A stretch of 64,000 bases of DNA from Lonicera japonica. Its lineage: Eukaryota > Streptophyta > Magnoliopsida > Dipsacales > Caprifoliaceae. The DNA is taken from contig JAKCWG010000771.1 of assembly GCA_021464415.1 (NCBI GenBank), forward strand, positions 203,136 to 267,135, given 5' to 3'. Of the stretch, positions 7,270-63,021 are shown in pieces (positions within the stretch are counted from its first letter, which is position 1; every line of letters starts with the position of its first letter). Below the pieces are notes generated by a model. The model was not told the DNA's origin, did not search any database, and saw only the letters and a program-made list of their open reading frames with translations. Both the position numbers and the translations under genes were made by a program.

Positions 7270-7418
7270 TATATATAGGAACCAAACTAGTTGTCCCCAA
7301 AAAATACCAATTGTCCCCAAAAGAAAATAGTTGTCCCCAAAAAATACCAATTGTCCCCAAAAGAAACCATTGTCCCCAAAAAAATACCAATTGTCCCTAA
7401 GAAAAACCAATTGTCCCC
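7270..7418 (-). promoter_or_regulatory. Promoter of the E1 PMD gene: TATA box plus seven phased TTGTCCCC motifs
   Basis: A TATATATA box at 7270-7277 lies about 105 bp before the PMD start codon. Immediately upstream of it (rightward) are seven motif copies starting at 7291, 7311, 7331, 7351, 7370, 7391 (TTGTCCCT) and 7411, nearly all 20 bp apart. The same TTGTCCCC motif occurs twice just upstream of the TATA box in the E1 LTR (9578-9606). The spacing of about two helical turns would place bound proteins on one face of the DNA. Confidence 0.8.
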
Positions 7419-7636
7419 AAAAATATAAAAAACTCTTTTTTCTCTTTTATCCGGAATAAAAATGTCATTTTTTTATCAGTTTTCAAAAAAAATAAAAAAA
7501 ATAAGAGGAATCACGGAATTCTGAAGTTTTCAAGCCAACACGGAGAATTTAAACCAAGATTTCCACAGAATACAGGAAATGTGCCCTTAGCAGTAGAGAA
7601 ACTATTTGAAGAGAACAAAGTGGGTACAAGAAATAA

Positions 7637-7890
7637 TTGAAAGAGTAGAAAAGAGGATAAAACCCACAGCACCAAGAGAGAAGAAATAAAGAGAATCCCA
7701 AAAAAACAGAGAAAGAAGGTAACGGCAAGAGCCACACCGAGAGTGACAGCTAGGCCAAAAGGCTCAGGGCTGCGTCTCAGGTGAGAAAGGCTGCTGGCCA
7801 TGCAAAAGATTAAATAGACGGGCATCAAGAAAAAAAAGCCTTGAAAACATCAGAGGGAGATATAAGGGCATCAAAAACAGAAAAGGTGCA
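7637..7890. other. Conserved 3' non-coding block of E1
   Basis: Contains ATTGAAAGAGTAGAAAAG, GAGCCACACCGAGAGTGACA and, at 7779, CAGGTGAGAAAGG, then a further conserved stretch around TAAGGGCATCAAAAACAG. All are shared in order with E2 (45020-45325) and E3 (63268-63530), although surrounding DNA is unrelated. It lies between the antisense promoter and the tandem array. The minus strand can be read as a hydrophobic peptide, but the frame is broken in E3. Confidence 0.65.
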
Positions 7891-8122
7891 GGTGCAAATA
7901 AAAATGTTCTCCAAAAACCAAGAAAAAACTGCAAAGGGCAAGAATCCTGAAAATTGTGGAAACATGGGTAAGAATTCAAGAGTGTAAGGTGAAAACCCCA
8001 AAGAAAGCACTCACGAGGTTTACAAACCAAGGAAATCGTGATTACATCTTTTTAGAAAGAAAGGAAACTCATCAAAAAAATACATGGAAAAACTGGATAA
8101 AAAGAAGAAAGAAAACCTTTTT

Positions 8123-8880
8123 CAACCCAGAAAGCAGATTCGTTGCCAAGAATCGTCCTACGAAGTAGGAGTACCACAGCTCAACCCAGAAAGCAGATTC
8201 GTTGACAGAACCTTCCTACGAAGTAGGAGTACCACAGCTCAACCCAGAAAGCAGATTCGTTGACAGAACCTTCCTACGAAGTAGGAGTACCACAGCTCAA
8301 CACAAAAAGCAGATTTGTTGACAGAACCTTCCTACGAAGTAGGAGTACCACAGTTCAACCCAGAAAGCAGATTCGTTGACAGAACCGTCCTACGAAGTAA
8401 GAGTACCACAGTTCAACCCAGAAAGCAGATTCGTTGACAGAACCGTCCTACGAAGTAGGAGTACCACAGCTCAACCCAGAAAGCAGATTCGTTGACAGAA
8501 CCATCCTACGAAGTAGGAGTACCACAGTTCAACCCAAAAAGCAAAATCGTTGACAGAACCGTCCTACGAAGTAGGAGTACCACAGTTCAACCTAGAAAGC
8601 AGATTCGTTGACAGAACCGTCCTACGAAGTAGGAGTACCACAGTTCAACCTAGAAAGCAAATTCGTTGACAGAACCGTCCTACGAAGTAAGAGTACCACA
8701 GTTCAACCCAGAAAGCAGATTTGTTGACAGAACCATCCTACGAAGTAGGAATACCACAGCTCAACCCAGAAAGCAGATTTGTTGACAGAACCATCCTACG
8801 AAGTAGGAGTACCACAGCTCAACCCAGAAAGTAGATTCTTTGATAGAACCGTCCTATGCAGTAGGAGTACCACAGCTCAA
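8123..8880. repeat. 58-bp tandem array, about 13 copies
   Basis: The period of 58 bp is measured from successive AAGTAGGAG positions (8163, 8221, 8279). Each unit holds the inverted repeat TCCTACGAAGTAGGA. The array sits between the conserved 3' block and the 3' LTR. Tandem repeats in the 3' untranslated region are a known hallmark of Tat-lineage elements and a source of satellites. Bases 8881-9064 to its right hold no recognised feature. Confidence 0.92.
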
Positions 8881-9064
8881 CATTTGTTTGCAAAGCACAG
8901 GACGCGTCCTGAATCGCCCATCCATTCCCAGCAGAGATAGACAGCACAAACATCATTTAGCATGGCATTGTTTTCAAAAAACATATCATGGAGGATTCAT
9001 GCAAGCGCCTCAAAATGATGCATTCTCAGTATCGTCCTAGTTTCTTTGTTCCAAAGAACCTAGG

Positions 9065-9075
9065 CCGAGAGGGTC
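9065..9075 (+). other. Polypurine tract of E1
   Basis: CCGAGAGGGTC directly abuts the 3' LTR. The same GAGAGGGTC stands in front of the E2 3' LTR at 47287-47295, which supports it as the plus-strand primer site. Confidence 0.65.
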
Positions 9076-10761
9076 TGTGAATACCTCATTTTTCGACCCT
9101 CGCACAAATCCCGAACTTCAAGAAAATGAACACACAGGCATGCATAGACATTCATGGATGAATATATACTCTATATATGTGATACAGGTCAAAGAATGAG
9201 GCAGAAAGGCCACCCGGACAGAAAGTTACGAGAATTACCAGAAACTGCCGAAAATCGATAACCGTGAAAACTCCTGGAAGGTAAACTTAAATATCTATGG
9301 ATATCTGATCTCTCTCAAACTTTGAGGATTGTTAGGTAATACTACAAGGAGGAACATACTCAAAAATCAGCACATTCTGACGACCGGATCTCCGGGAATT
9401 GAGAAAACTGGGAATTCACCTCGGGAATCAAAAGGCACACTTCCCGAAGTACAAATGAGCTGAAATTTGGTTAAGAGGTAGGTTACATTGTGGGGAACAA
9501 CATATCAAAAAATCAGATCATTCCGATACTCGGTTGGGCCGAAATCGCAAAAACCGTTGCAAAAGAGGCAAAACCGGTTGTCCCCGCGACAACACCAGTT
9601 GTCCCCACGGCAACTGGTCATTTCTGCTATAAATAGACCCCTTTTTGTGCCTTTTGGAAGGGAGGAAAAAGTGGAAAATCTCGGGAGAAGTGTTGGAAAT
9701 AATATATTCACCTTGGGAAAGCTTTTTGGTAAGTTTCGTAATTTTCTGAATTGCAATTTTTATCCGTGTATTTTCATTGAATCACATGTAGAGAGTGATA
9801 TTTATCTCCAAATCAGTCCAAATTTCATATTTGAGCTTTATTTTAATTATAGAAGGTGTGGATTGAGAAAAAATCGTATTTTGAAAATATATTTTTATCA
9901 GGGTATTTTTTATCAGTCTCACATTTAGACTGCTGTTTAAATTCCAAATCAGTTCAAATTTTAGATTTGAGTTGGATTATCAATATTGAAAATATTGGTT
10001 GAGAAAAAATCACATTTTGAAAGAATATTTTTATCAGTTATTTTCAATTTTTATCAGTCTCAATCTACACCGGAATTGATTGATTTTGTGCCCCGTTTAA
10101 TCTATAAATTTGGGCGTTGAATTAAATATCCAATGTGAGAGTATGAAAATTGTCAAATTCCAATTTAAGTAATTAAATTGTGATATACTATTTGACAAAA
10201 GAAATCTCGATGATTGCCGGATACCAATTCTAAACTAAATTAGCTTCTGAAAAGCTCTGATTTTTATCCAAATGCACTGATTTCGTTGTCTATCTCTATA
10301 CAAAACAATTGTGAAACCACACACATACACACTGATTTCTAAAATCAAAAAGGGCGAAATACGAAGCACACGTCTTCAATCCCCACCCCAAAATCCCGGT
10401 TTTCTAAAAATAAAAGGTTGAAGTGAGATAATATTATACGCGCATGCGAATTTGTGATAATACTTAACGCATATTATACTTAGAGACCGAAAGGGCGAAT
10501 TGGGTGCCTAATCCCTTCCCAATTCGTAATTTAATCCCCGAACCCTTGAATTGTCTGGTTTCGCATTAATTGTGTTTAAGAAGGCGTTTAATTCATAAAT
10601 GTTTTTCTTTTACACAAAACTTTTGTTTGTTTAGTAAAACAAACTGGCGACTCTGAATTGTTTACAAAATGTCATGTTTTTTTGTAATTAATAAAAACTC
10701 CAACGTATTCCGAAAATAAAAGATGAAAAGCGGAGGGGCCGAGAAAACGCGGGTTTTCACA
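9076..10761 (+). repeat. 3' LTR of E1 (1686 bp)
   Basis: Begins TGTGAATACC and ends GGTTTTCACA, giving TGTGA/TCACA terminal inverted repeats. U3 has two inverted repeats around TTGTCCCC: GTTGTC/GACAAC at 9577-9593 and CCAGTTG/CAACTGG at 9595-9617. TATAAATAG follows at 9628-9636. U5 contains the family-wide hairpin CGAATTGGG/CCCAATTCG (10496-10526) and a copy of the first ten bases of the primer site (10645-10654). The open frames inside it are not genes. Confidence 0.9.
9577..9636 (+). promoter_or_regulatory. E1 LTR promoter: two TTGTCCCC inverted repeats and TATA box
   Basis: The two motif centres are about 21 bp apart and the second ends 11 bp before TATAAATAG. The motif is the one repeated seven times in front of the antisense PMD gene of the same element. 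Confidence 0.78.
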
Positions 10762-11864
10762 GAAAGAAATAAGAATTTTTCGTTCATGATAATTTTGGAA
10801 TTACAGCTATGTGTATATATTCTCAGCAATACAAGATTTCATAGCACCTCTCTGAAACATCAGTGAATCCAGCAAAAACACATCTCACAATTAGTCCTTA
10901 GCATTTGACACCTAGCCTTAAAATATAAAAGTTCAAACCTTGGAACACTGGTTTGTTGGGTTGCTTAACTATTTTAGGATTTCCATAGGTTATTAGGTTC
11001 CACCAACGTATGTCCTTCTAAATTGATACAATGAAGTTACCACCTGGGCATTCTACCCGAGCCAATTTCTTTTTTAATTAAGATAAATGAAACATAAGGT
11101 GAATTTTACCAGTAGGAGACATTGTAAGTTTGCAAGCATCTGTCCTTATTTAGCTATAACTTGATATGGAGAAAAGGCATTTTGAAGGAGGGGAATATGG
11201 TCTACCTCTTATAATCGCTGAGGTTGTATTTCTGAGACAAGAGTTGCATACTTGCATCTTGCTGCAGCTTCCGGAAATCTGGATAAAGCATCAGATGCTC
11301 TATCATTCATCCCATTTATTGTAACTTATAGTTTTGAGCCCATTTTTATTGCATCATAGTTGTCATACTTAATTAAGGAAATACATCATGCCTTTTCGAT
11401 GTACATGAATAATAAACTAGCATCCCTGCAAATAATACTTATATTTAGCAAAAAACTGCTTTGGTAACTCTTATCATTCATACCATCTTCTTTCATATTA
11501 TCTAGGACTAATCTAGGCATACGGCATGCATCTTCCTTCGTATTATTAACTCGATGATTCTAAATGCATGAAGAGAACTTCAAAACTTACCCTAAAATGG
11601 CAGCATACATTATATGTATATAGCTGACTTTTAAGGCATTTGAGTTATAATTGGCTTAATGAATTGAAATTGAATTGAAGAAATTGCATATGTTTTTTAC
11701 TGCAAAAAGTTCATTTGCACACCCAATGCACTATTTTATTATATTAAAGAAATTCCATTTATTTAATTTGTTTATTTGATTATGCAATCGTATACATATT
11801 ATTAAAACACATTATACAGTCTAACAGTAGTATATTTTGCTTGTAGACTAAAGAGAAGGCTTAA
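10762..11864. other. AT-rich sequence with no recognisable gene
   Basis: Flanking DNA to the right of E1. I see no long open frame, RNA gene or repeat. It may be upstream sequence or an intron of the Ulp1-like gene that follows. Confidence 0.5.
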
Positions 11865-18037: not shown

Positions 18038-19294
18038 GTTGTTGTGAGAATCCGGACCCGCGCGACCCGAGAGAAGAGATAGAGTCCACGTTCTCTGTTT
18101 TATTTGAAAAAAACATGTTTTGTAGAGTCGCCAGTTTGTTTTACGAGAAAACAAACAAAAGGTCGTACGAAGGATAATTCGAAAACGAACTATCTTTCAT
18201 ACGTTTGAAACCAGAGATTTATTTTGAAAATTGACTTTGCTAGGGTTCGGGAACTACGTTACGAATTGGGAAGGTGTTAGGCACCCAATTCGCCCTTTCG
18301 GTCATTTAATGGATCATGTATCTAATTCCTATTTTAGATATCTTGCAAGTAGTTCGAATGGTTTTCAGAATAGTCCTTTCCGGATAAGTTTAGTTTAAAA
18401 CAATATTTTAAAATCAGACTCGAGCTTTTCGAGCGCCTACGTATTCATTCGTAGAATGAAATCAGAGTCTCGTAGTTCCTTTCTTTTGGAAGCTGTTTTT
18501 GTATTTTTGTTTGTTTTGAAAATGTGTCAAAACGGATTTTAGATTTCTTGTAAAACTTAGAAAGGATTTGTTTTGAAAGCAGTGAACTTCTTTGCAAGTT
18601 ATCTAATTTTCTGTATTAAAACGAATTTAAATGCAGTATTGAAATTAAGGATGGTTGTAGAAAGACGTACCTGATGCGCTTGAAGAAGAAATAAGAGCCT
18701 CGCCTAGTTGCCTTGCTTGCTTCCTTCTCTCTCTCTAAAACTTTCTCTCTCTAGATTTTCTCTCTCTAAAACTTTCTCTCTCTAGAAATTCTCTTTCAGA
18801 ATTTCTTTAAAATGACTCTCTAAAGATTTTGACAGAGTTTCTACTTACTAAAAACACTATTGAGTGTTGATGATCTCAAAAGAGACCCCAAGGGTCCTAT
18901 TTATAGGGAAAAAATCCGCCAAAAATGCTCTAAAAGAGGCCAGCCGCAGGGGGTAGCCGCACCGCGTGCGGCTGGGGCGTGCGACAGGTGGTAGCCGCAA
19001 GGCGTGCGGCTGGTGGCTGCGACAGGGGCGTGCGACAGGGGGCCAACCGTACGGCTGGCAGGTAGCCGTACGGTTGGGGGCGTGCGGCTGGCCAACCAAA
19101 AAAAGTGCAGGTCGATCCCCGTCCTAGTAAGCGAAGAGGCAACAAAGGTTATATCGAACTCCCAACGCGCGCGAAATTGGAGTCTTTCCTAACGGTCTTC
19201 TATATGCATGATGACTCAACACTTGACGTGAGATGTTGATTTTAAGAAAAGCAGTGTTCGCACGAGAGTCGTGGATTGGGGTGTTCACAGTTGT
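18038..19294 (-). mobile_element. Solo LTR of the E2 family with 5-bp target-site duplication
   Basis: The LTR at 18043-19289 (1247 bp) is the reverse complement of an E2-type LTR. Read on the minus strand it begins TGTGAACACCCC and ends ATTCTCACA. It is flanked by GTTGT on both sides (18038-18042 and 19290-19294), so it is a solo LTR left by LTR-LTR recombination. It keeps the U3 palindrome CCAACCGTACGGCTGG (19043-19058), a TATA box near 18897-18906, the U5 hairpin (18262-18292) and the internal primer-site-like decamer (18124-18133). Confidence 0.92.
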
Positions 19295-22555: not shown

Positions 22556-24091
22556 TGTAGACACCCCGATCCGTGACCCCCGCAAGAACCCTAACGACCT
22601 TCGGGAACTGCTGTTTCTGGAGTCCGGGACCCACCCGAACACCCGACACTGCCCTGGAAGCGTTTGTTGGCCAAACAAACCAGTTTTTAATGGAAATGTC
22701 GCACGACACTCAAGATTGTCGCGCGACATACACAGGATTGTTGTGCGATAATCCTAACTTTATGGGGACATGTCACGCGACAAACACCCCACCACTCCAC
22801 TTTTTGACTCATCAGTGAGTCAGAATCATCATTAAAGTAGAATGTCGCGCGACAGTCAAGATTGTCGCGCGGCATATACCCAAATGTCGCGCGACATATG
22901 CCCTTTCGTCACTATAAATAGGGCAGCACCCCCATGGGTTCTAGACAGCAACATCAGAGCAAGATCAGAGCTGAAAACGGCAAGAAAAATCGCCAAAACA
23001 GTGCAGAAAATAGCAACAAGCATTTTCGATTATCGTCTTATTTCTAAAGAGTCGAATCTATTCTCGACACTCGACGTGTCCGGTCTCGGGAATCGAATTC
23101 TCAGAAATATCTGAAGAAGGAGAAGATTATTATTGCCGAAGATCTCTCTGCCGTATTATATTTTCTTTCTTATTATTATTCTCGTCGGGAAGTGGCAACA
23201 TGGTTGTGTTAGGTTTCTAACGCGCTCGAAAATCAGGTTTATCTGTGTACTTGTTTTATTTCTGTTGTTTTGTCCACATTTTATTTGAATAAACTTATTG
23301 CCAAGTTATAAATAGTCTACCATCTTCAAAATAAAAGACCCTGATAAAACCATTTGCAAAATCAGAAGAGTAAGTAGATTATCATCCGGATAAAATTCTG
23401 TTTTCAAAACCCGGATTGATAAGACTTATCTAGGAATTAAAATCAGCATATCCTGTCTTCTCTATAGACTGCGACGTGTCTGATAACTCTCCTCAAAGAA
23501 TTCTAGTTCCATATTAAATTAGTCCCGATACAAGATCCGAACTTTTACAAAAGTAATCACAACACGAGAAAACCGTCATTATCTGAGGAAATAATACGGG
23601 ATACTCTTTCAAAATAAAAGGTTTTGCCATTTGTATTTACATCTTTCAATAATAAAAACATCGGATCTCGGAACACAAAGGTTCTTTATCCCTTTCCCGC
23701 TTTCCTTAAAATTAGGGTTTTTATTCGAAAAGTAGTAGACTGTCAGTAAAAGCATCCAAGTTTTTCAACATAGAATAAACATATAAGTCCACTAGAGAAC
23801 GAAAGGGCGGAATGGGTGCTTAACACCTTCCCAAACCGTAATATAGTTCCCGAACCCTATAGAATCCTGGTTTTGCAGACAAACGTGTAAAGAAAGGCTT
23901 ATCTGTAGCCTTTCCCCTTACACAACCCTTTTTGTCCGTTTTCTCGTAAAACGTACTGGCGACTCTGAATAAACCCTCTTGCATCTAGAAATAGGATAGA
24001 GGGACACCCGATATGAATTATCAACACGCCATTAGACGCACGAGAACAAATAAGGAACGAGGCCCGGGGGTCGCACTTGCGGATTCTCATA
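22556..24091 (+). repeat. LTR of Tat family E3 (about 1536 bp)
   Basis: Starts TGTAGACACCCC and ends near GGATTCTCATA, directly followed by the primer site. U3 carries six TGTCGCGCGACA-type palindromes plus one weak copy, and TATAAATAG at 22913-22921. U5 has the hairpin in variant form (CGGAATGGG at 23808, CCCAAACCG at 23830) and TGGCGACTCT at 23957-23966. The same U3 palindrome marks the antisense promoters of E3 at 58571-58614 and 62956-63021, which ties this LTR to E3. The terminus is uncertain by a few bases. Confidence 0.8.
22697..22921 (+). promoter_or_regulatory. E3 LTR promoter: TGTCGCGCGACA cluster and TATA box
   Basis: Motif copies start at 22697, 22717, 22771 (TGTCACGCGACA), 22843, 22863 (TGTCGCGCGGCA) and 22885. 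A weak copy lies near 22740. Neighbouring copies are 20-22 bp apart. The last copy ends 16 bp before TATAAATAG. Confidence 0.82.
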
Positions 24092-24110: not shown

Positions 24111-24629
24111 CAATGAGAACTAGGCTTTTATATGTGGATTTTTTGTTTATAATATGTTGATATGCATGCTTTTATTGCTTTCCCTACTTGCCCCCTGACG
24201 TGGTGCCTGGATTTTATTGTTGACCTGACCTAGAGGCGCATTAAAGTCCATTCATTGACATAGACATATGTTTAGGATTTCCCCTTTATGTTATATATGA
24301 TTGTAAAGAAATATCTTTTTTAAATAAAAATGGCGTTTTCAAAATACACCTCGAAGATAATATATTTGCAATCAAAACTTTTAAAAAATTCTTGTTTTGC
24401 ACGCACTTTCACAAATCATGCATTGGTTCTACGAGTGTGAATTTACCCCGAACCCTCGGAAGTATTATAAATGAGTAGGGAGTTGGCTTGCTTGGGCCGA
24501 CATAAACCGAAAGCATTTACTTCCACTCTCCTTGGCCAAGTACGCCCCCGAGGTATATCGAGTGACGAGAACACTCACGTACCCGGGAAGTATATCAAAA
24601 GATTCTTGCACGTACCCGCCCCTAGGGTA
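24111..24629 (+). other. E3 leader, 5' part, ending at the copia insertion
   Basis: Non-coding leader with CTCCTTGGCCAAGTAC and GAGTGACGAGAACACTCACG, both shared with the E2 leader near 31230-31290. From 24186 on it is duplicated at 47488-47927. It ends in GGGTA, the target-site duplication of the copia element. Confidence 0.75.
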
Positions 24630-40695: not shown

Positions 40696-40749
40696 CGGGT
40701 GGGGCGTGCGGTTGGCTCTTCCCCTTTGGCCAAAAATCTCCGTTTTTCC

Positions 40750-44495: not shown

Positions 44496-44604
44496 CACTC
44501 ACTTTGTATAAGACACTCGTTAAAACTTTTTGAAAATTGGACAGTTGTATGCTAGAAAGAGAAGTTGCAGGAAGAAGTGGTGAGGAATGATTCAAAACAG
44601 GCCA

Positions 44605-44770
44605 CTATTTATAGGAAATAGGAGCCAGCCGCAGGCTAGCCAGCCGTACGGCTGGCCCCCAACCGTACGGTTGGCTCCCAGCCGTATGGCTGGGGGGTCA
44701 AACCCTGCGGCTACCCCCAACCGCATGCTCCCAGCCGCACGCCCTGCGACTACCCCGTGCGGCTACCCTC
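44605..44770 (-). promoter_or_regulatory. Promoter of the E2 PMD gene: TATA box and phased palindromes
   Basis: CTATTTATAG (44605-44614) is the TATA box on the minus strand, 110 bp before the ATG. Upstream are CCAGCCGTACGGCTGG (44640-44655), CCAACCGTACGGTTGG (44659-44674) and CCAGCCGTATGGCTGG (44678-44693), exactly 19 bp apart. GCCGCACGCCCTGCG and GTGCGGCT variants follow up to about 44766, as in the E2 LTR. Confidence 0.85.
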
Positions 44771-45019
44771 ATTTTTGACCAATTTGACCCAAAAAAAAAA
44801 AAAAAGGGGGGGGGAAGACACTGATAAGTTCTGAATTAACCTTTTTCCAACACAAGAGGACCAAGACTCACACACACGCACGAGATGACTCATCAATGCC
44901 CGAAGCTTGACATTCCAAAGTCTGTGGAGGAACCGAAATTCAAAAGGATCGATCTATTATCCGGAAGGCTCGAATCTGACAGATAAACGGGGAAGGTGTA
45001 AAAGAGGAATCGGGTACCA

Positions 45020-45325
45020 GAAAAAATTGAAAGAGTAGAAAAGGGCAAAATCCCGTTGGTCCAAGTGAGGAAAAAGTGAAAAAAAAAATTAAAAAATAAA
45101 AAAAAATGAAGAAAATCGACAGGGAGAGCCACACTAAGAGTGACAGCTGTGCCAAAAGGCGGAGGGCTACATCTTAGGTGAGTAAGGCTCCTGTTTTGGA
45201 AAAAGCCAAGAAATAAAAAGGCAAGGAAAGTCCGAAAGCCCAAAATGAAAAGGCCGGATAATCAAAAGAGGGAGCAATAAGGGTATCGAAAAACAGAAAA
45301 CGATACAGGACCAACATCTTCCCTG
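45020..45325. other. Conserved 3' non-coding block of E2
   Basis: ATTGAAAGAGTAGAAAAG, GAGCCACACTAAGAGTGACA, TTAGGTGAGTAAGGCTCCTG and TAAGGGTATCGAAAAACAG, in the same order as in E1 and E3. The plus strand has a strong 5'-splice-site-like GTGAGTAAG at 45178. Confidence 0.65.
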
Positions 45326-45609: not shown

Positions 45610-46870
45610 CTTACCGCACGTTCCCCAAGATGGGAATTTCCCGAATTCTTCAAGTAGGAATTCTTCGCATTCCCCACGATGGGAATTTTTCCGAAACCCC
45701 TTTCCCCACGAAGGGAAATAACGACTCCACGTGTTCCCCACGATGGGAATTTCCCGAATTCTTCAAGTAGGAATTCTTCGCATTCCCCACGATGGGAATT
45801 TTTCCGAAACCCCTTTCCCCACGAAAGAAAGTAACGACTCCACGTGTTCCCCACGAAGGGAATTTTTTCGGATTCCTCAGAGTTAGGAATTCTTCGCATT
45901 CCCCACGATGGGAATTTTTCCGAAACCCCTTTCCCCACGAAGGAAAATAAAGACTCCACGTGTTTCCCACGAAGGGAAATAAAGACTCCACGTGTTTCCC
46001 ACGAAGGGAATTTTTTCGGATTCCTCAGAGTTAGGAATTCTTCGCATTCCCCACGATGGGAATTTTTCCGAAACCCCTTTCCCCACGAAGGGAAATAACG
46101 ACTCCACGTGTTCCCCACGAAGGGAATTTTTTCGGATTCCTCAGAGTTAGGAATTCTTCACATTCCCCACGATGGGAATTTTTCCGAAACCCCTTTCCCC
46201 ACGAAGGGAAATAACGACTCCACGTGTTCCCCACGAAGGGAATTTTTTCGGATTCCTCAGAGTTAGGAATTCTTCACATTCCCCACGATGGTAATTTTTT
46301 CCGAAACCCCTTTCCCCACGAAGGGAAATAACGACTCCACGTGGTCCCCACGAAGGGAATTTTTTCGGATTCCTCAGAGTTAGGAATTCTTCGCATTCCC
46401 CACGATGGGAATTTTTTCGAAACCCCTTTCCCCACGAAGGGAAATAACGACTCCACGTGGTCCCCACGAAGGGAATTTTTTCGGATTCCTCAGAGTTAGG
46501 AATTCTTCGCATTCCCCACGATGGGAATTTTTCCGAAACCCCTTTCCCCACGAAGGGAAATAACGACTCCACGTGTTCCCCACGAAGGGAATTTTTCGGA
46601 TTCCTCAAAGGTAGGAATTCTTCGCATTCCCCACGATGGGAATTTCTTCCGATCCCCTTTCCCCACGAAGGGAAATAACCTTTACCGCCTATTCCCCAAG
46701 AAGGGAATTTTTCCTGGATTCCTTAGAGTTAGGAATTCTTCGCATTCCCCACGATGGGAGTTTTTTTTCCGATCCCCTTTCCCCACGAAGGGAAATAACC
46801 TTTACCGTGCATTCCCCACGAAGGGAATAACTCTATCCCCACACTCCCCACGATGGGAGTTTTTCAAATT
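45610..46870. repeat. About 116-bp tandem array built of CCCCACGAAGGGAA hairpins
   Basis: AGTTAGGAAT recurs at 45881, 46029, 46145, 46261, 46378 and 46494, giving a main period of 116 bp and one longer unit. Each unit contains several inverted repeats such as TTCCCCACGAAGGGAA. It occupies the same place as the E1 array. Long open frames on both strands are repeat artefacts. Bases 46871-47284 to the right show no gene, only short GAGGGT repeats near 47040-47090. Confidence 0.92.
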
Positions 46871-47295: not shown

Positions 47296-47484
47296 TGTGA
47301 ACACCCCAATCCACGACTCTCGAGTAAACTCTGGTTTTCTTAAAACAAGCATCTTGCGTTTTTGTGTTGAGTTATCATGCATATAGAAGACCGATAGGAA
47401 AGACTCCATTTTTGGCCACGTTGGGAGTCTGATATAACCTTGGTTGCCTTTTCGCTTACTAGGACGGGGATCGTTATTTCCCGT
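47296..47484 (+). repeat. Truncated 3' LTR of E2
   Basis: TGTGAACACCCCAATCCACG and the following about 150 bp match the 5' LTR almost perfectly. The sequence then breaks at CTTGCC and continues directly as E3 leader. U3 motifs, TATA box and U5 are missing. Confidence 0.9.
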
Positions 47485-47927
47485 CTTGCCCCCTGACGTG
47501 GTGCCTGGATTTTATTGTTGACCTGACCTAGAGGCGCATTAGAGTCCATTCATTGACATAGACATATGTTTAGGATTTCCCCTTTATGTTATATATGATT
47601 GTAAAGAAATATCTTTTTTAAATAAAAATGGCGTTTTCAAAATACACCTCGAAGATAATATATTTGCAATCAAAACTTTTAAAAAATTCTTGTTTTGCAC
47701 GCACTTTCACAAATCATGCATTGGTTCTACGAGTGTGAATTTACCCCGAACCCTCGGAAGTATTATAAGTGAGTAGGGAGTTGGCTTGCTTGGGCCGACA
47801 TAAACCGAAAGCATTTACTTCCACTCTCCTTGGCCAAGTACGCCCCCGAGGTATATCGAGTGACGAGAACACTCACGTACCCGGGAAGTATATCAAAAGA
47901 TTCTTGCACGTACCCGCCCCTAGGGTA
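47485..47927 (+). repeat. Second copy of the E3 leader 5' part
   Basis: Near-identical to 24186-24629, with only about two differences noticed. It begins at CTTGCCCCCTGACG fused to the truncated E2 LTR and ends in GGGTA. Confidence 0.9.
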
Positions 47928-49561
47928 TGTTGACCTTGAAGGTCTTAATCTTATTTTGATAATAACAATAAATTAATCATGTGTAATTTAACATGTTCTT
48001 GATATAAGATTATAGATTTCTTATTTGTAAAATCAAGAATAGCATGATTCCTCAAAGGAAGTTTGACAAGGATCATTCAATCAATATCCGATCAAGTCAA
48101 CGAAGCATTCGACTAAAACCGATCTACCCGAATTCAGATCATTCTTCTACAAGCGTTGGACAAGACAAGAAGATCAATCTCATCACCCACAAGCTAGCAA
48201 TGCAAAACCATGAAGCACAAAGATCAAGAATCATATGCAAAAGCTTCAAGGGAAAAGCTTTAAGTGAAGAATCAATTTGAAGAAACAAATCGAAGCATTC
48301 GAAGACTCATCTATTCGGTAATTGAGTGTTTGCTTAGGATTAATGTAAAGTTTCTTAATTGATTGATTATATAGCTCAAACATATTCATGCATCTTTTAA
48401 AGATTGATTCAAACTAGCTTGAAATTGAATTTATTTGAAAAACATCATTTTACAAAAACCGAGTTTCAAAATAAATTCATATTAATTTTAAATGATCATA
48501 TTTTAAGCTATAATAAAAATGGGTATCTTAGAAACATATATTTGAGGTTCAAAAATCATTAGAATTTTATTTGGAACTAAATTATTAAATTGGAAAAATA
48601 TTTTTATTTATCGTTTAAAATTCGCTCAATTTTTGCCCAGTTTTGATCTAACGGTAAAATGGAGGCCTTCCTGAACTCCGATCATTTTGAAATTTTTACA
48701 GTAGTTAGACAACATCTCCTGGAAATTTTGACAAAAAATTGAGCATGATCCAACGGTCTAATTGAGAGAAATTAACAAAACAATTTTGAATTGTTTTGTC
48801 AAAACTAGCTGTTGGAAAGTTTGAAAATGTATACCTTGGAGCCAAAACCTCTCTTAATCATCCCCAACGGCCATATGATTTTGTAAGCTATAAATATGAT
48901 GTCTTAGACATGTTTTAACACACTTGAATCATTCTACAAACTTTTTTTACATATATACAAAGTTATTCAAGTATTATTGATCATATTCTTCATTTTTGAG
49001 CTATATATTTTGATCAATTTTGATATCACTTAGTGTGAGCTTCATTTGTATTTTGTCATATACAAGAGAGATATTGTACATTGGTGTTTGTCACCAAAAC
49101 TCATTTTGAATCATAATTGTGAGAGGTGTATCTCATAGATTAGCAAGAGGGATTTCTTGTGAGAGTATTGAGGGTGTTTCAATACTTGTAAGAGTGTGTG
49201 AGAAGAATACACTTGTAGAGGTTTGATCTTCACCCGGAAGGAGATCGGTTATAGTGGAAATTCTCAGGGAACTAACCGAGTGCGGAGTAGGGGGAACAAG
49301 CCGAACCGTGTGGACAAAAAATATTCGACTTCAAATTGGTTCAATCTTTCTTACTCAATCTCTTTATTTATTTGTTATATTAATTGATTAAAGTTGCTTA
49401 TATTATTGCTTATTATTGGGATTGATTATTTAATTGATTGTTTTCCTTGATAAACTTATTTAACTAATTTGCTTTACATAAATATTTTAAAAACGTTTTA
49501 ATTCCGCATTAAGTTTTTAAAACCCTATTCACCCCCCCTCTAGGGTATTTTCCGACCTACA
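47928..49561 (+). mobile_element. Solo copia LTR with GGGTA target-site duplication
   Basis: The LTR runs from TGTTGACC to GACCTACA (1634 bp), flanked by GGGTA at 47923-47927 and 49562-49566. It interrupts the E3 leader: removing it joins CCCTAGGGTA to TATCGCGAGG, which matches the uninterrupted E2 leader near 31335. It is nearly identical to the copia 5' LTR at 24630-26264. Confidence 0.93.
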
Positions 49562-53100: not shown

Positions 53101-56100
53101 ATTACTTCAAGCTTTGGAACCGATAACGAGGTACGAAAGGGAAGGTTTGGGGTACTAACACACCGAAGAAGACAACCAAGAAAAACAGAGCCGAGGGCAT
53201 CAATATCCGAGTTTCAGCTCTCTGAATGGGTTTTTCGTCAAAGAATGAGAAAACTTCTCCTTTTGCGGTTTTCAGGAGCCTTGGAGAAACAGCAATGGAG
53301 ATAACCTTCCAGGATGGGAAATATTTTATGAAGAAGACCTCTATCTCAAAGAAAGCATTTTGCACAGCTTCTCTACCAAGATAACGATCGGGCCGAAAAG
53401 AAAAAATGAAGATAAGAAAGATGAAGAGGAGGAATTGATCGGAGATCTTTTCGACATCATGGCTCTAGAGGATAATGAGTCAGGAGATGACCCTGTACAC
53501 TTGATACACGCTGATCCGGATTATCAGGAAAAAAGGGGAAAGAGTGAAATTGTAAGGGTGGAAGATAAGAGTGGGGGTAAGGATAGGGAGGAGTCATTCC
53601 TGGATTTACTTTTCAAACTTGTACCTGTAAGCACTATTATTAACGAAGAAGACTCTATTTTGCGTTATCCTGTTAATGTTAATTCTGTAATTGCTTATAT
53701 GGAGTTGGAAAGACTAAACGAACACCCTGAACGGGAGGAACAACGTATACAGAGCGAGGAAGGAGACACTCTTATAATTAACCTCGGAACAGAAGAAGAA
53801 AGGAAAGAGGTCCGTATTGGGGCAAGTCTGAATGAGATAGAAAGAGAAGAATTCACTCAAACTCTGAATGAGTACGTGGATATATTCGCCTGGTCCTATG
53901 TTGATATGCTGGGTTTAAACAGTCAGATAGTCATGCATGAGATACACACCAAGCCGGAGTTCAGACCGTCAAGCAAAAATTGAGAAAGCTTACGCCAGAA
54001 TGGTCCCTGAAAGTAAAAGAAGAAGTGATGAAACAACTGAGTGTAAGGTTTTTGCGGGTGATCGAGTACCCTTTATGGTTAGCCAACATTGTGCCCGTTC
54101 CAAAGGCAAATGGGAAGGTCCGCATGTGTGTGGATTACCGAGATCTCAATAAAGCCTGCCCAAAAGATGATTTCCCATTACCCAACATCGATTTGATAAT
54201 AGATAATACTGCCAACCATGCCTTGAAGTCATTTGTGGACGGTTTTGCTGGGTATAATCAGATCAAGATGCACCCAGATCACCAAAAGAAAATAGCATTT
54301 ATCACGCCATGGGGAACATACTGCTACACTGTTATGCCATTCGGGCTGAAGAACGCCAGGGCAACGTATCAGAGGGCAGCTACCGCTATTTTCCATGACA
54401 TGATTCACAAAGAAGTGGAAGTGTATGTGGATGACATGATAATCAAATCAAAAGAAAGGTAAGGCCATGTACCAGCCTTACGAGCCTTTTTTAACCGCCT
54501 CTGCTAGTACCAAATGAGACTCAATCCGCAGAAATGTGTGTTCGGGGTAACCAAGGGAAAACTCCTAGGCTAAGTTGTCAGTAAGAAAGGAATGGAGGTA
54601 GACCCTGCCAAGGTTCGAGCTATCCAAGAAATGCCCGAGCCTCGTACCGAGAAAGAAGTCCGGGGATTTTTGGGTAATTTGCAATACATCAGTAGGTTCA
54701 TCTCTCAGCTCACTCAGACTTGCGAGCCCATCTTCAAACTCCTGAGGAAATCTTCACTGGGAGAGTGGGACGATCAGTGCCAGGAAGCTTTTGATAAAAT
54801 CAAAGAGTATCTCTCCAACCCCCCAGTATTAGCCCCACCACAGACCAGATTGCCGCTAATTCTATACCTAACCGTCACCGATTCGGCTGCAGGAGCCATG
54901 CTAGCCCAACATCTGACCGATACACGAAAGGAACAAGCCATCTACTACATCAGCAAGAAATTATCCCCATTTGAGATAAACTACACGCCATTGGAGAAGT
55001 CATGCACTGCTCTCGTCTGGGCAACGCAGAAATTACGGCACTATATGCTAGTCTTCCCGGTCATCCTGGCATCACGAGTTGATCCGTTGAAATACCTCTT
55101 CGAGAAACCAGCTTTCTCAAACCGTATGGTAAAATGGTTATTCTTGCTCTCCGAATTTGACATCACCTACATGACTCAAAAGGCAGTAAAAGGCAAGATC
55201 ATAGCTGATTACCTGGCCCACAATCCGATATTGGGGGACATATTAGAAGAAGCAGAATTCCCAGATGAAACTATCATGAATGTCAAGATCGACGAAGACT
55301 GGAAATTATACTTCGATGGGGCAGCCAACCAAAATGGGAATGGAGTAGGCATCTTGTTATTCTCTCCAGACCAAGCTCACTCTCCGATATCATATCGTCT
55401 AGACTTCTTCTGCACCAATAATATGGCCGAATATGAAGCCTGTATAATTGGATTAGAGATTGCACTCCAAAGGGGTATACGGAGAATACAAGTGTACGGA
55501 GATTCGGTATTGGTAGTCCACCAAGTGCTACAAGAATGGAAGGTCAGAGATGAGAAGTTGGTACCATACCTCTCTCGACTGGAAGATATCGCGGGGAGAT
55601 TTGAGCATTCGGAGTTTTACTATGTCCCCAGGTCACAGAACAGTTTTGCTGACGCATTGGCAACCTTGGCATCTATGATCGATATCCCGGAGGGGATGGA
55701 AGAAATAACTCTTACAGTACAAAGGAAATCAGGACCAGCACACTGCATGGCCCTTGAAGTAGAGAATGAAAAGGAAGGGGACTCAACCACTTAGTTTTAT
55801 GACATCTGGAACCTATTGAAAAATCATCAGTATCCCAAGGAAACGGATAAGAAAATACGGGTCACACTCAGAAGGCTAGCATCAGGGTTCATACTTTGTG
55901 CCGGAAGACTGTATAAGAGGAACTACGACGGGACCCATCTTCAATGTCTCACCGAAGAAGAATCGGTCAAAGTAATGGATCAGATACATGGGGGCGATTG
56001 CGGATCTCATATGAGCGGTCATACACTTGCCCGCAAGATCGTCAGACAAGGTTATTACTGGTCTACCCTTCAAAACGACTGTGTTAATCACGTACGTTGT

Positions 56101-57157: not shown

Positions 57158-57244
57158 TATGAAGCAATAAAAGTCCTTTGTTTATTATTAAGGTGGTTCA
57201 GAACACCGGAAGTTACAAAGGAGATACATCATACAGAAAGACCT

Positions 57245-58496
57245 AATCCCTAGGGGTTGGCCAAGCAGGGTCCTCAGTAGCCAAGTCAATTCGGGCCTCA
57301 TCTAGAATCTGGTACGCAGAGACAATGCTTCCTCAGTGGGCTCGGAATCCATGAACTAAAACCACTCCATCTGAAAGGGGTCATCAATCAGCTCATCTTC
57401 AAAAGACCCCCAAAGAGAACGGATGACGTCAGCCCAGAGGGGCCTGGAAATACCAAAATAGGCATGGTTGAATTGACGAATCAGTCGAGCACGCCACATT
57501 CTCTCCACCGATGAAGAAATATGCAGGGTCAGAAATTTAGACTCGGAAGAGAAATTGTTCAGACCAAGGGGAATGCCCTGGGGAATGTTATACTGCCAAG
57601 AAGACGTCCTGGGAGATAAAAAGAAGTGAACCAGAGCCCACGGAGCCGAACGTAATTCTGCCCCCGGTACTAAGCACTATCGCCCTCAGCTTTCACCAAG
57701 GAATGTTCCACCGAATAGCCCTAGAATTCTCTGAAAACCATACCGTCCAATCAGAGGAAGACATGGTCAAGGCACCAAAGAGGGGACGATGGAAGAAGTA
57801 TGTCGGGTTGCCAAGATGGACCCCATTGAAACCCACTGATCGAAAATGCTCCAATAGCCACATGTATAGCAAGCGTGGACTTCCCCTGAAGAAGGGCGAA
57901 GCTCCCCTTTTGAGGTCATCTAGACCATTCAGAGTCTCGGCCAGAACGATAGGCACTATGGATTCCCCATTCCTTGCCTGATAAACCAAACTCAGAATAG
58001 TCGGATCAACATAGAAAGAGCCTGTCACCAGTAGCATATCAGAAACAAGACAAATCAAGGCTGCTACAGTACGCCCCGCACTATAAGAAGCTCGCTCCTC
58101 GTAACGATGAAAGAACCTCACCATTTTATGGAGATCAAGGAGCCCGTCAATAATAAAACCATCATAAGCCACTTGGGGAATGGCTAACAGAGCAATCAGC
58201 ATGTCTCGAGAACCGATTTCTTCTATGGGAACAGCCATCGGAAGGCGAACGTCAGAACGCAATAGCCAAGAAAATTCTTCGTAAGTCGGGCAGAGCTCGT
58301 CTAGTCCAAAACAGAAAAGATGATCGGCAGGACTCCAGAAATACAGAGCGCCAAGTAAAAAGGAGAAGTCTATAGGACGATGGCGCCAGCTCGCTAAAGG
58401 ACTGAATACACCAAAGTTCAAGACATTTTCAGAAGATATCAGAGCATCTCGGGCTTCAACATAAGAAAAATCAGAACTTGTGTGACAAGAAGACAT
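57245..58496 (-). pseudogene. E3 DUF7745-like antisense gene, frameshifted
   Basis: ATG at 58496. It is open to 57693 and homologous to the E2 protein: FSFLLGALYFWSPADHLF, LDELCPTYEEFSWLL, RTVAALICLVSDMLLVTG and SPRLLYMWLLEHF. After IRWNIPW the frame breaks, and homology continues in other frames to about 57245. The longer open frame to 58631 starts at a GTG and crosses the promoter, so 58496 is preferred. Confidence 0.8.
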
Positions 58497-58534
58497 TTTG
58501 GAAAGGTGTAGGGATGAAGGAAGGAAGATGGGTG

Positions 58535-58619
58535 TATTTATAGCAAAAAAAGGAGGATCTTGTACTTGTTTGTCGCGCGACAAACCTATATCCAGGAGGG
58601 ATTGTCGCGCGACAATCCC
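58535..58619 (-). promoter_or_regulatory. Promoter of the E3 DUF7745-like gene: TATA box and two TGTCGCGCGACA palindromes
   Basis: CTATAAATA (minus strand, 58535-58543) lies about 40 bp before the ATG. Palindromes are at 58571-58582 and 58603-58614. The second is embedded in a perfect 22-bp palindrome (58598-58619). Confidence 0.83.
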
Positions 58620-58949
58620 ATTTGGTGTCACCCTATTTTTTTGCTTTTCTCACACATAAGAGTCATTCTTGCCAAAGATCCACTTTTTTATATATTTGTA
58701 CTCACTCCGTTCTTTTGCAGGGACCTTAAGTATTATCCCATGACAAATGTACGATTCCTAAAATCATCAATCTATGTAACTATTATTTTTCATCACAGAT
58801 AAAAAAATAAATGCGTAACATCAGACACAAATAAAGATTTTTTATATAAAACCAATAAAAGAACAGTTTTCTACAAAAACCCTATCTAAAAGTCTAAAAG
58901 AATAAAAACTACATATTTGTCAGGACTAACTAAAATACAGGAAGGAAAG
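58620..58949. other. Spacer between the two E3 antisense genes
   Basis: AT-rich, no gene or repeat recognised. It corresponds to 40750-41263 in E2. Confidence 0.4.
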
Positions 58950-61900
58950 CTAATCTAATCGGGAGCGTTTGGACACACTCCCACTATCACCCGAACCATC
59001 CTCGGGAGTAGGATCGACCTCTGGGATGCCCTGAGTAGAAGGAGCTGCTGCCTGCGAAGGCCTGTCGGCTAGACCGGAGCCGTGGACTGGATCACCGAGG
59101 ACCGAGACTGTCTGGAAGTCCGGCTACTGCTCCTCCGAGACTCCGTCCTAGCGCAAGAGGAAGACAGAGGGTCATTCGCCTGCAAGGAAATGTCGATCGC
59201 CCTTTGATAGTCCTGCATGTATGTCGTAGGGTCTCGACCAACGTACTAGAGCAGGTTCCACCTGTAAAGGTACTGGGAATGCCAAGCCCTCAGATCTGCC
59301 ACACGCACGCTCACCCGCTGAAAAGAAAAGAAAGAAAAATCAGCACCGATAAAATAAGTAAGCATAAATATGAAGGGATATTGAAGGAGGAAAAGCACAT
59401 ACCTCATCATCAGAACGACCACCCAAGTAGTCAAACGTGTCTCCAGGGAGAGGATACTCGGGTACCGTATATCGACGTAAGCCAGCACCGACATACGAGA
59501 AATCTCGAGGAAGTGTCGACAGATCTACCGAATGATTGGACGAACTCGCCGGCATAGCAGTAGAAGTAGACCCACCCTCCTCATGAATCGGGAACAAAGT
59601 AGGACGAGAAGACGAGCCACCAAGACCTGTAGATCTGACCGGAGGACCCATGGCAGCAGACGGAAGGGGAGTCAGCGTGGCATAAGTACGAACGCCTGGG
59701 GGGTCCACTACGGCCGTCGCTCTTAGAGGCGGGACCCCACTAGAAACAGCAGCAGCAGCAAAAGGGGTCCGCCCAAACTGCTCGTAATCAACCCCGAAGT
59801 TTGCAGGCTCGCAGGATCGCTCGGGAAAATCACCTCCCCCTCTCTCAACAGGCTGCTCCTCTCCAGGTGTAGTCTGAGACGGTTGCTCTGGAACCGCCGC
59901 TGTCGCACCTCCCTCGCTGCCCTCGGGCCCATCATCACCACCCTTGGGTCTATCATCATCTCCCTCGGCAGCAGCAGGGACGTCCCTCTCACCATCATGA
60001 TCATCATCGTCAGAGTCCAAAATGTTATCCCTCTGATCAGGGATAGGCGGCAAGTGACCAGGGACCGTCTTGGACAAGTGAGTCTGCCCTCGTATGTAGT
60101 TGGGATCTCCTCCGAACGCCTGGTACCTCTCATAGAAGACCCGTCCCCGAGTCCCCTTCGTCTCCCTCATCAGATAGCGGGTAGCGAAGACAGCATAATC
60201 CCCCTCCTCGGTGAACGTCTGGAAATTGAGTCCATCTATAAGGGCTTGTACCATCACGGGGTCGATCTCGCCCGTCCGCCTTATCAGAACTGGCAGAAAT
60301 AAAGAAACCGAGGCACTGAGCCGGTGAATGCTGGCGAATAACCTTCTCGCCTAGATAGAAATGAAGGCCGTACTCGTCCCTGATAAGCCGCTTGGTCCTC
60401 GAAGCGGTCAGAGAACGGCCATATCCAAAATGAAGACCCAGATCGCCCTAAGGGGCCCACTCAATCTGAAAAAGAAGAATAAGATTTTATTTCAGTAATT
60501 TATATTCTATTTTACCATTTATTACAAAACAAGAATACTAAAATATTTACTTGCTCCTCCAACAGGTCGTGGACAGCAGCAGCTCCGGTCTCTCGAGTCC
60601 GGTATACATAAGGAGCCCTGTAGTTCCCCACGATGAATCGGCGGAGAAAGGGGAACTGGTCCTCGTTCTCAACGAGGAGATCCACCTGGGCGCGATCCAG
60701 GCGGGTATAAGCAAGGAACCAACTCTGAAAAGGAAAGATAACGTATTTCAGCAATAATCAACAGGTGATATATGAAGGTCCAAAGACAAAAGGACTAAAG
60801 TATGTACCTCCCACAACAATGAGAAGCCCTTGAGGTTCAGGGCTAAATGGCGAGAGACCTGGTCCATGGCATCATATAGGACTGCAAGAATGAAGCCGCC
60901 CCAGTCATAGTCAAACATGAGGCTGAAGTCCCGAAGATAAGGAAGCCACCAAAGATGGGCCGTGTCCCCCCACGGGCTCGAATAGATCATGGAATGTCAG
61001 TAGAAGAAGGACGCGGGCATACTGGCGCGCCTCCTGACGGGTCATAGGAATCCCTGAAGCAACTAGCCGTGCTCTCTCTGTGCCTAGACGCGTAACCAAG
61101 ACGCCCGAGGAACCGTCCAAATGCGCTAACAATGCCCTCTGCCGTCAGACGCAAAGGGACATCGATCCGAATGGGGATCCCCCTAAAGGAATCCCGGTCA
61201 GAGCAAAAAGATCGAGAGGGCTCATCGTCATCTCCCCCAGCCCCAATGGAAGGTATGAGTAGTATCCCACCAATGGCAAGCCAGTGATGACACCAAAACT
61301 GCCGCCCTAGAAACCCGCTCTGGGAGGGCATCGAAGAGAGAGCCAAAGGAATCGCAAGAATCAACTCCTGAACAGGGGCTGGTGCCCGTCGCCCCTCCAG
61401 AGATATAGTGTTGGGAGAACCCCAACCTCGGCCAACCCACTACAGACAACAGAGAGAGATATATGTATAAATATAGGGTTATAAGGGTAAATTATGTAAT
61501 TTTCCAAAACCTGAGGGTACTTTGGTGTAATTATGAGAGATATAGGGTTATAGGGGTAAAATTATGTAATTTTCCAAAACCTGAGGGTACTTTGGTGTAA
61601 TTATGAGAGATATAGGGTTATAAGGGTAAATTATGTAATTTTCCAAACCTGAGGGTACTTTGGTGTAATTATGAGAGATATAGGATTATAAGGGTAAATT
61701 ATGTAATTTTCCAAACCTGAAGGTACTTTGGTGTAATTATGAGAGATATAGGGTTATAGGGGTAAAATTATGTAATTTTCCAAAACCTAAGGGTACTTTG
61801 GTGTAATTATGAGAGATATAGGGTTATAAGGGTAAATTATGTAATTTCCCAACCTGAGGGTATTTTGGTGTAATTATGAGAGATATAGGGTTATAAGGGT

Positions 61901-62786
61901 AAAATTATGTAATTTTCCAAAACCTGAGGGTACTTTGGTGTAATTATGAGAGATATAGGGTTATAACGGTAAATTATGTAATTTTCCAAACCTGAGGGTA
62001 TTTTGGTATAATTATGAGAGTTATAGGGTTATAAGGGTAAAATTATGTAATTTTCCAAACCTGATGGTATTTTGGTGTAATTATGAGAGTTATAGGATGA
62101 TAGGGTAAATTATGTAATTTTCCAAACCTGAGGGTATTTTGGTGTAATTATGAGAATTATGGGATGATAAGGTAAAAATATGTAATTTTCCAAACCTGAG
62201 GGTATTTTGGTGTAATTATGAGAGTTATAGGATGATAGGGGTAAATTATGTAATTTTCCAAACCTGAGGGTATTTTGTGTGTAATTATGAGAGTTATAGG
62301 GTTATAAGGGTAAAAAATGTAATTTTCCAAAACCTGAGGGTATTTTGGGGTAATTATGAGAGTTATAGAGTTATAGGGGTACATTATGTAATTTTTTAAA
62401 GGGTATCACAAGTAAAAGTATGTGTTCGCTAAATCGGACATTATTTTTAGGCAGACATGCATACTAACATTGTTTAAAATATATGCAGGAAACGACGGAA
62501 ATAAAAGAACAGACAAAGAAAGAATTTCAAGAAGACATACCAGAGATCGTCGGCGAATCTCGTGAGAAGCAGGCTCCATCAAGAGCCACGGAACATCAAG
62601 GACCGGAGCAGCCCGGGTAATATCTCGATAAATAACCGCCCGACCGCGGTCCACTCCATCCTCATCATACCAATCCAGGTCCTCCCAATCATCGTGATGA
62701 GGACTGCAGCGGAGAACGCCCTGAGCGTCAGTAAAGGTGACCTCCTCTTGGTCACCCTCTAATCGATCCGGCTGTGCTGGGTCCAT
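58950..62786 (-). pseudogene. E3 antisense PMD gene, five exons, frameshifted
   Basis: Exons on the minus strand: 62786-62541, about 61439-60808, 60724-60551, 60465-59403 and 59317 to about 58950, with GT/AG borders at the same places as in E2. Exon 1 has SPHHDDWEDLDW and PWLLMEPASHEIRRR. Exon 2 has HWWDTTHTFHWGWG, but with a frameshift before it (near 61350) and more after it. Exon 3 begins SWFLAYTRLDRAQVD. Exon 4 has an early TAG (60448-60450), then RYLMRETKGTRGRVFYERY, an acidic run (ILDSDDDDHDGERD) and Pro/Ser-rich sequence. Exon 5 is Arg/Ser-rich near its end and has stops. Intron 1 is about 1.1 kb because of a minisatellite. Confidence 0.8.
61455..62395. repeat. About 69-bp minisatellite in intron 1 of the E3 PMD gene
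   Basis: About 13-14 copies of a unit with GAGAGATATAGGGTTATA, GTAATTTTCCAAA and CTGAGGGTACTTTGGTG. The period is 68-70 bp from TTTCCAAA positions (61501, 61571, 61640, 61708, 61777). The intron of the homologous E2 gene is only 186 bp. Confidence 0.93.
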
Positions 62787-62936
62787 CTGTGTATATGGAA
62801 TATGAATGAGAAAAGTCGAAAAGTCGGATAAGCGGCAGGGCTTCCGCGCTTAAGAGAAGAAAGAAAGAGAGAGAAAGAGAGCTAGAGAGAGAGAAAGAGG
62901 AAGGAGAGAATGAGGTGGAATGAGCTCAGCAGGGAG

Positions 62937-63021
62937 TATATATAGTGGATCAATATGTCGCGCGACAAACAGCCTCATTGTCGCGCAACAAAGGGCCTTG
63001 CCACCGAAATGTCGCGCGACA
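62937..63021 (-). promoter_or_regulatory. Promoter of the E3 PMD gene: TATA box and three palindromes
   Basis: TATATATAG (62937-62945), then TGTCGCGCGACA at 62956-62967, TGTCGCGCAACA at 62979-62990 and TGTCGCGCGACA at 63010-63021. The ATG is at 62786. Confidence 0.84.

Follow-up and report, generated by a model that had tools for sequence, protein, structure and literature searches.

The LTRs and the antisense genes of three Tat-type LTR retrotransposon families (E1, E2 and E3) share an array of short motifs upstream of the TATA box, and the motif differs with the family. Within the 64,000-nucleotide stretch of Lonicera japonica DNA analyzed (the window), the arrays are built from TTGTCCCC in E1, CCGTACGG, CCGCACG and TGCGGC in E2, and TGTCGCGCGACA in E3. 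All nine promoters of the original prediction were found, comprising LTRs of E1, E2 and E3 type, an E2 solo LTR, three promoters of plant mobile domain (PMD) genes and two of DUF7745-like genes; the last motif lies 11–34 bp from the TATA box in 9/9 promoters, in agreement with the roughly 10–35 bp predicted. As the motif stands in both LTR and antisense promoters and one encoded protein is predicted to have a VANC-like fold, these data suggest that each family may control itself by a private DNA code.

A second RNase H domain in pol is a hallmark of Tat elements. In E3 (54592–55794), RT_RNaseH_2 and RT_RNaseH are accompanied by a second RNase H (RVT_3, 73.7 vs. a cut-off of 21.6; RNase_H, 28.9 vs. 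25.8), which by sequence places this element in the Tat lineage of Ty3/gypsy. The second RNase H of E2 (35041–37470), cut by the end of its ORF, scored just under the cut-off (RVT_3, 21.2 vs. 21.6). Antisense ORFs are located between pol and the 3′ LTR in E1 and E2, and after pol in E3. Judged by their Pfam matches, the E1 PMD, E2 PMD and E2 DUF7745 proteins are members of the plant mobile domain superfamily (PF10536/PF24924), and 17 members gave no match to DUF1985 at E ≤ 10. According to the accessible text of a survey, TRP28 (PF04195) occurs as an antisense domain in 97% of Retand-clade clusters (PMC11963269); it was absent from the Pfam matches of our scanned antisense ORFs, although it might escape notice in short or spliced exons.

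The E1 3′ LTR (9076–10762, plus strand, ends read from the sequence) is 95.6% identical to the E1 5′ LTR, which lies outside the window (L014, 3991–5718). It contains two TTGTCCCC at 9578 and 9599 (9578–9606, plus strand), 21 bp apart and followed by the TATA box TATAAATA at 9628, while the 5′ LTR has three TTGTCCCC at 21-bp steps. In the antisense PMD promoter (7291–7418, minus strand), six TTGTCCCC (7291, 7311, 7331, 7351, 7370, and 7411) and one TTGTCCCT follow each other at steps of 19–21 bp, with the TATA box at about 7270–7277. Relative to transcription, TTGTCCCC in the LTR is oriented oppositely to that in the PMD promoter. Elsewhere in the window it occurs three times (24106, 29529, and 32575, minus strand). 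The antisense PMD gene (5658–7165, minus strand) consists of exon 1 at about 6900–7165, as read from the frames, and a PMD core ORF at 5658–6722 (PF10536, 1e-18, 68.1 bits vs. a cut-off of 34.9). A further antisense ORF (4211–5446, minus strand) had no Pfam match and is probably the C-terminal exon of this gene. PMD was the only antisense gene type seen in E1, and viral contigs scanned for relatives of the E1 PMD protein yielded none.

For E2, an array was present in every promoter, as predicted, but the motif types proved to be a mixture. The 5′ LTR (29682–30860, plus strand) carries CCGCACG, TGCGGC and TGTCGCACG types at 29837–29968, followed by the TATA box TATAAATAG at 29997; it contains no CCGTACGG and instead has the CCGCACG and TGCGGC types in common with the other promoters, each of which contains two copies of CCGTACGG. 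These are the solo LTR (18043–19290, minus strand; 91.8% to the 5′ LTR), with its array at 18940–19098 and TATA box at about 18900–18905; the DUF7745 promoter (40634–40717, minus strand), with CTGTACGG, only one CCGCACG and a TATA box at about 40614–40619; and the PMD promoter (44628–44765, minus strand), with CCGCACG, TGCGGC and a TATA box at about 44608–44613. The antisense DUF7745 protein (39294–40526, minus strand, 410 aa) scored 37.1 against the curated PF24924 cut-off of 26. The antisense PMD gene (43329–44500, minus strand) has exon 1 at about 44190–44500, again from the frames, and a PMD core at 43329–44012 (PF10536, 7.3e-22, 78.4 bits vs. 34.9). Sequence nearly identical to the repeat at 24179–26264 interrupts the 3′ LTR, the start of which lies at 47296–47476 (plus strand).

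All seven exact TGTCGCGCGACA of the window are located in an E3-family LTR (22717, 22843, and 22885), the DUF7745-like promoter (58571 and 58603) or the PMD promoter (62956 and 63010). The LTR (22556–24091, plus strand; ends and following primer-binding-like sequence read), with a motif block at 22709–22896 and TATAAATAG at 22913, had been attributed to E3; it is indeed of the E3 family and contains TGTCGCGCGACA, but it belongs to another copy, since the own 3′ LTR of E3 lies beyond the window, with which the contig ends. In the DUF7745-like promoter (58571–58614, minus strand; TATA about 58537–58542) the two sites are 32 bp apart. The antisense DUF7745-like gene (57200–58496, minus strand; one frame open at 57693–58631) encodes a protein 43% identical to that of E2 and 88% identical over 285 aa to P0007 of Lonicera macranthoides; on its own it remained below the Pfam cut-off (12.8 vs. 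26), as did P0007 for PMD (24.7 vs. 34.9). The PMD promoter (62956–63021, minus strand; TATA about 62937–62944) has three palindrome sites, the middle one mismatched. Its antisense gene, broken in the window (60250–62790, minus strand; exon 1 about 62545–62790), has a 68-bp tandem repeat between exon 1 and the core, and four E3-type copies (L002, L007, L008, and L010) match both exon 1 and the PMD core.

The predicted sharing of a family-specific motif between LTR and antisense promoters was confirmed: 141 8-mers were common to promoters of the same family (9 pairs) and 16 to promoters of different families (26 pairs), while 500 dinucleotide shuffles of the within-family pairs gave a mean of 10.3 and a maximum of 23. 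At least one common 8-mer is ordinary, being found in 46% of 18,152 random window pairs and in up to 9/9 shuffled pairs. The single E1 pair has just 4 common 8-mers, among them AGTTGTCC, and 10% of random window pairs have at least 3; the case for E1 therefore rests on its motif arrays. The co-variation of motif type and family, as seen in these sequences, comprises three families. A PF24924 search listed 118 places and yielded no fourth family, the two promoters read (L050 and L051) being of the E2 family.

Across the whole genome (886 Mb), there are 29,561 occurrences of the 12-bp palindrome TGTCGCGCGACA, compared with a single one of the reversed control. At 13 motif-selected loci, all 19 E3 clusters kept (those of one inexact site were dropped) were LTR-type, PMD or DUF7745-like promoters, and each adjoined a TATA box; as these loci were drawn from the first-listed 50 sites, all on one contig, they are no random sample, and the LTR-type clusters were recognized by a post-TATA leader shared with the window LTR rather than via both LTRs. 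CCGTACGG was present in 32/32 E2-family DUF7745 promoters read, and E2 arrays stood in both the LTR and the PMD promoter of 5/5 other E2 copies. Between E3 LTRs, motif sites diverged by 5% and other positions by 24%, in an alignment that favors motif-motif pairing and with gap-facing cells (916 motif, 6,938 other) set aside. Helical phasing was considered but is not claimed: neighbor spacings (20–23, 30–34, 42, 54, 72, and 80–81) look quantized, but the test for a 10.5-bp period was weak (R 0.53, P 0.022 vs. uniform), and periods of 10 and 12 fit better.

Short TATA-proximal sites are typical of host factors, and each family might have captured a different host transcription factor for co-expression, the antisense proteins doing otherwise. 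In the original prediction, GTAC was likened to SPL cores, CGCG to CAMTA cores and TGTC/GACA to auxin-response-factor (ARF) sites. This explanation is unlikely; three motifs at the same place in one genome, apparently variations on one half-site, are better accommodated by a diverging element-encoded binder, and the VANC-like fold predicted for the encoded protein would be a coincidence. It is less probable still that the antisense promoters were copied from LTR DNA, or that the motif was dispersed through tandem duplication and gene conversion, with no dedicated binder. E2 arrays vary in unit number at a period of mostly 19–20 bp, so duplication does act; however, self-BLAST of the window gave no LTR-to-antisense-promoter match (matches of at least 80 bp, at least 600 bp apart), cluster spacings differ between promoter types, and the conservation of the E3 LTR motif over its flank argues for selection, even if the aligner favors matching motifs. 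A silencing, chromatin boundary or DNA-structure role without a promoter code is the least probable, as the CpG-rich, largely palindromic E3 and E2 sites and the mismatches in 108 E3 sites (49/59 C>T or G>A, as expected for methylated, decaying copies) would fit it, whereas the E1 motif, which sits at the same place, lacks both CpG richness and a palindromic form, and the sampled E3 clusters all adjoin TATA boxes.

We therefore favor, with reasonable confidence, a private regulon in each Tat family. The accessory genes on the antisense strand (PMD in all three families, joined by a DUF7745-like gene in E2 and E3) would encode sequence-specific DNA-binding proteins of VANC-like fold; these would bind their own family's motif, whose copies mostly follow each other at about 20 or 31 bp next to the TATA boxes of LTR and accessory genes, and thereby jointly activate or un-silence the family. 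Motif sharing, placement, recurrence and conservation, together with one modeled fold resemblance, are observed and partly support the predicted coevolution of a cis code with an element-encoded binder, while binding, the identity of the binder and the sign of its effect are inferred. If the regulon is real, activation or un-silencing is rather likely; autorepression or copy-number control is a clearly weaker possibility.

The closest parallel is VANC of Arabidopsis VANDAL transposons. As far as the accessible text of these studies goes, an element-encoded protein is likewise paired with family-specific short motifs in tandem arrays in noncoding DNA, arrays gain and lose units, and sister families have different motifs (PMC5735166, PMC10398659). 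Such arrays are found here in the elements' own noncoding DNA, and AGTTGTCC equals the printed VANC6 CC-type motif. The structure model of E2 DUF7745 resembles VANC21 bound to DNA (9lnj); an initial model, built on 5 sequences, was of inadequate quality (pLDDT 42.5). VANDALs, as described in those texts, are DNA transposons whose VANC contains DUF1985, whereas ours are LTR retrotransposons encoding PMD/DUF7745 proteins that gave no match to DUF1985, their sites adjoin TATA boxes of LTR and antisense genes, and binding is proposed by analogy. Retand- and Grande-type elements also have antisense genes, as well as tandem repeats, in the region that separates pol from the 3′ LTR; the Grande gene has its own promoter, and TRP28 had already been suggested to bind DNA and act as a regulator, but the accessible sections describe TRP28 and other domains, with no LTR-shared motif, instead of PMD and DUF7745 (PMC11963269, PMC7264820). 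Host PMD proteins MAIN and MAIL1 are needed for expression of genes with the DOWN promoter motif; in the portions available these are host genes, the motif is CATGCAGTTT, and direct binding is left open there too (PMC7156037, PMC9899485). By title or start of abstract, the matches listed in PMC included no report of a motif common to Tat LTR and antisense promoters, and no paper naming DUF7745 was found in PMC, subscription papers and preprints being outside this scope.

More tentatively, at slightly less than even chances, the PMD/DUF7745 superfamily would consist of fast-evolving DNA binders of VANC fold, kept antisense in Tat elements for self-recognizing regulons, with MAIN/MAIL1 and the DOWN motif as domesticated descendants and VANC-type anti-silencing in both classes of plant transposable elements. 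The shared cis motif and the modeled VANC-like fold point to a direct, testable function for antisense retrotransposon genes, a function called unknown in the accessible parts of reviews. If true, sequence-specific anti-silencing would extend from DNA transposons to LTR retrotransposons, the abundance of one palindrome in one genome would have a reason, and a route would open to what MAIN and MAIL1 recognize.

Three Tat-type LTR retrotransposons (E1, E2, and E3) were present in part within the window, with about 71% likeness among their pol blocks (window self-BLAST). A second RNase H is expected of the Tat lineage; it was present in E3 pol and lay marginally under the cut-off in E2. After pol, all three elements carried a spliced antisense plant mobile domain (PMD) gene, matching PF10536 in E1 and E2; the window's E3 gene is broken, and its recognition came via E3-type copies. 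A DUF7745-like antisense gene followed pol in E2 and E3 (E3 product 88% identical over 285 residues to a Lonicera macranthoides protein) and was not seen among the antisense ORFs scanned in E1 within the window. Between PMD promoter and 3′ LTR lay a noncoding block (7622-7796, 45012-45193, and 63331-63424) whose surroundings were not alike; its E1 copy was 75-82% alike to the E2 or E3 copy (self-BLAST) and contained a CAGGTGAG-like sequence, as of a splice donor, on the + strand. Tandem repeats were family-specific, with units of 58 bp in E1 (8033-9028), 116 bp in E2 (45620-46830), and ~68 bp in E3 (61440-62400, between PMD exon 1 and core). A 2.1-kb repeat occurred directly behind an E3-family LTR (24179-26264), where a copia gag followed it, and within the E2 3′ LTR (47477-49561; 98.6% identity). 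Immediately upstream of the E2 5′ LTR, a LOB-domain gene (28773-29468, - strand, PF03195 7e-23) is probably host DNA.

Nine LTR, PMD, and DUF7745-like promoters were compared. Their motifs were TTGTCCCC in E1, the group CCGTACGG/CCGCACG/TGCGGC in E2, and the palindrome TGTCGCGCGACA in E3. The original prediction that a motif cluster lies near each TATA box was borne out, the last motif ending 11-34 bp upstream of TATA in all nine. LTR and antisense promoters had their family's motifs in common in all three families; E2 was mixed, its 5′ LTR in the window containing the CCGCACG and TGCGGC types and lacking CCGTACGG. The E1 PMD promoter contained six TTGTCCCC copies in 19-21 bp steps, and the two E1 LTRs two and three copies at 21 bp. 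All seven exact E3 palindromes of the window fell inside the three E3-type promoters; three stray TTGTCCCC copies occurred elsewhere in the window. The E1 motif was inverted relative to transcription between the PMD (7291-7418) and LTR (9578-9606) promoters; any binder would therefore need to work in both orientations.

Within families, promoters of ~160 bp had 141 8-mers in common (nine pairs, excluding E2 LTR versus E2 solo LTR because of their plain homology), compared with a mean of 10.3 and a maximum of 23 in 500 trials with shuffled within-family promoters. Between families, 26 pairs had 16 in common, with any sharing in 11. The E1 pair had only four, and the E1 case therefore rests on its arrays.

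In the genome searched (886 Mb, 967 contigs), TGTCGCGCGACA occurred 29,561 times and a reversed control sequence once. Thirteen loci fetched from 50 TGTCGCGCGACA sites among the matches listed yielded 19 retained clusters: 12 LTR-type, four PMD, and three DUF7745-like promoters, the adjoining PMD and DUF7745-like genes being found by tblastn. The E2 DUF7745 protein had at least 102 genome matches, itself included, at 88-100% identity; each of the 30 E2-family DUF7745 genes fetched, plus two others, had CCGTACGG within the preceding 250 bp. Five of five further E2 copies (PMD exon 1 77-92%, LTR 86-90% identity) had E2 arrays in both PMD promoter and LTR. Because these copies are close relatives, this is recurrence and not independent evolution. 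Many E2-type DUF7745 genes (loci L036-L044 and the listed matches) scored identically (872.1) and had an open frame of 436 codons; one subfamily seems to have been amplified recently. At locus L047 (4265-4342), an E2 LTR was followed directly by the start of an E3-type TGTCGCGCGACA array; elements from two families are nested side by side there, each with its own motif.

In 13 aligned E3-type LTR promoters, including the window's, cells aligned to the exact palindrome differed in 5.1% (n = 5,420) and other cells in 23.9% (n = 59,266), with transversions at 0.85% versus 11.9%, a contrast that is overstated, since alignment favours motif-motif pairing. CpG sites outside the motif differed in 16.9% (n = 5,477). 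When E3 sites with no more than two mismatches were collected (n = 108), C>T or G>A changes made up 49 of the 59 mismatches, as expected from decay of methylated CpG. The E2 DUF7745 promoters had a variable number of a mostly 19-20 bp unit, and E2 LTRs varied in array composition between copies; judged from these sequences, the arrays change fast. The available part of PMC5735166 likewise describes fast change for the targets of VANC, the Arabidopsis VANDAL transposon protein, in arrays varying like those of E2. In some E3 LTR arrays (L001 ~4890, L002 ~9070), the sequence at the upstream edge was CCTATTTATAA, which on the other strand is a TATA box, and for this reason two divergent promoters may flank such an array.

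Read by eye, AGCCGTACGGCT (E2) and TGTCGCGCGACA (E3) both match NGYCGNNCGRCN, and the E1 LTR copy TTGTCCCCGCGACAA was compared with TTGTCGCGCGACAA in E3; there appears to be a relationship among the three motifs. This likeness would fit divergence of one ancestral recognition site alongside a homologous binder. The 8-mer AGTTGTCC, common to the E1 promoters, equals the printed VANC6 CC-type motif, a match of only eight bases that may be due to chance.

Antisense ORFs of such elements, with their own promoter in Grande, are already in print, and a DNA-binding role was suggested for TRP28 (accessible portions of PMC7264820, PMC11963269). Meeting reports, as far as accessible, likened MAIL1, a host PMD protein, to gypsy-encoded proteins (2019; PMC6419827) and mentioned unpublished studies of co-evolution and of the structure of VANC with DNA (2026; PMC12859917). 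The accessible text of a 2026 sunflower paper posed as a question whether LTR-retrotransposon ORFs could shape methylation as VANC does (PMC12844716). No link of PMD or DUF7745 to VANC, or to an LTR-shared motif, appeared in the accessible portions of these five sources. The MAIN/MAIL1 papers, in the parts available, do not settle whether these proteins bind the DOWN promoter motif (PMC7156037, PMC9899485).

The predicted PMD/DUF7745 proteins encoded by an element would recognise the motif of their own family, with the LTR and the promoters of their own genes as targets. By analogy with VANC, the proteins would activate the family that encodes them or relieve its silencing; with sites so near TATA, the sign could alternatively be autorepression. 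The weak E1 pair by 8-mers and the E2 5′ LTR without CCGTACGG slightly lowered our confidence in this regulon, and we still lean somewhat towards it: by analogy, PMD/DUF7745 proteins may well be VANC-like readers of a private family motif in three families.
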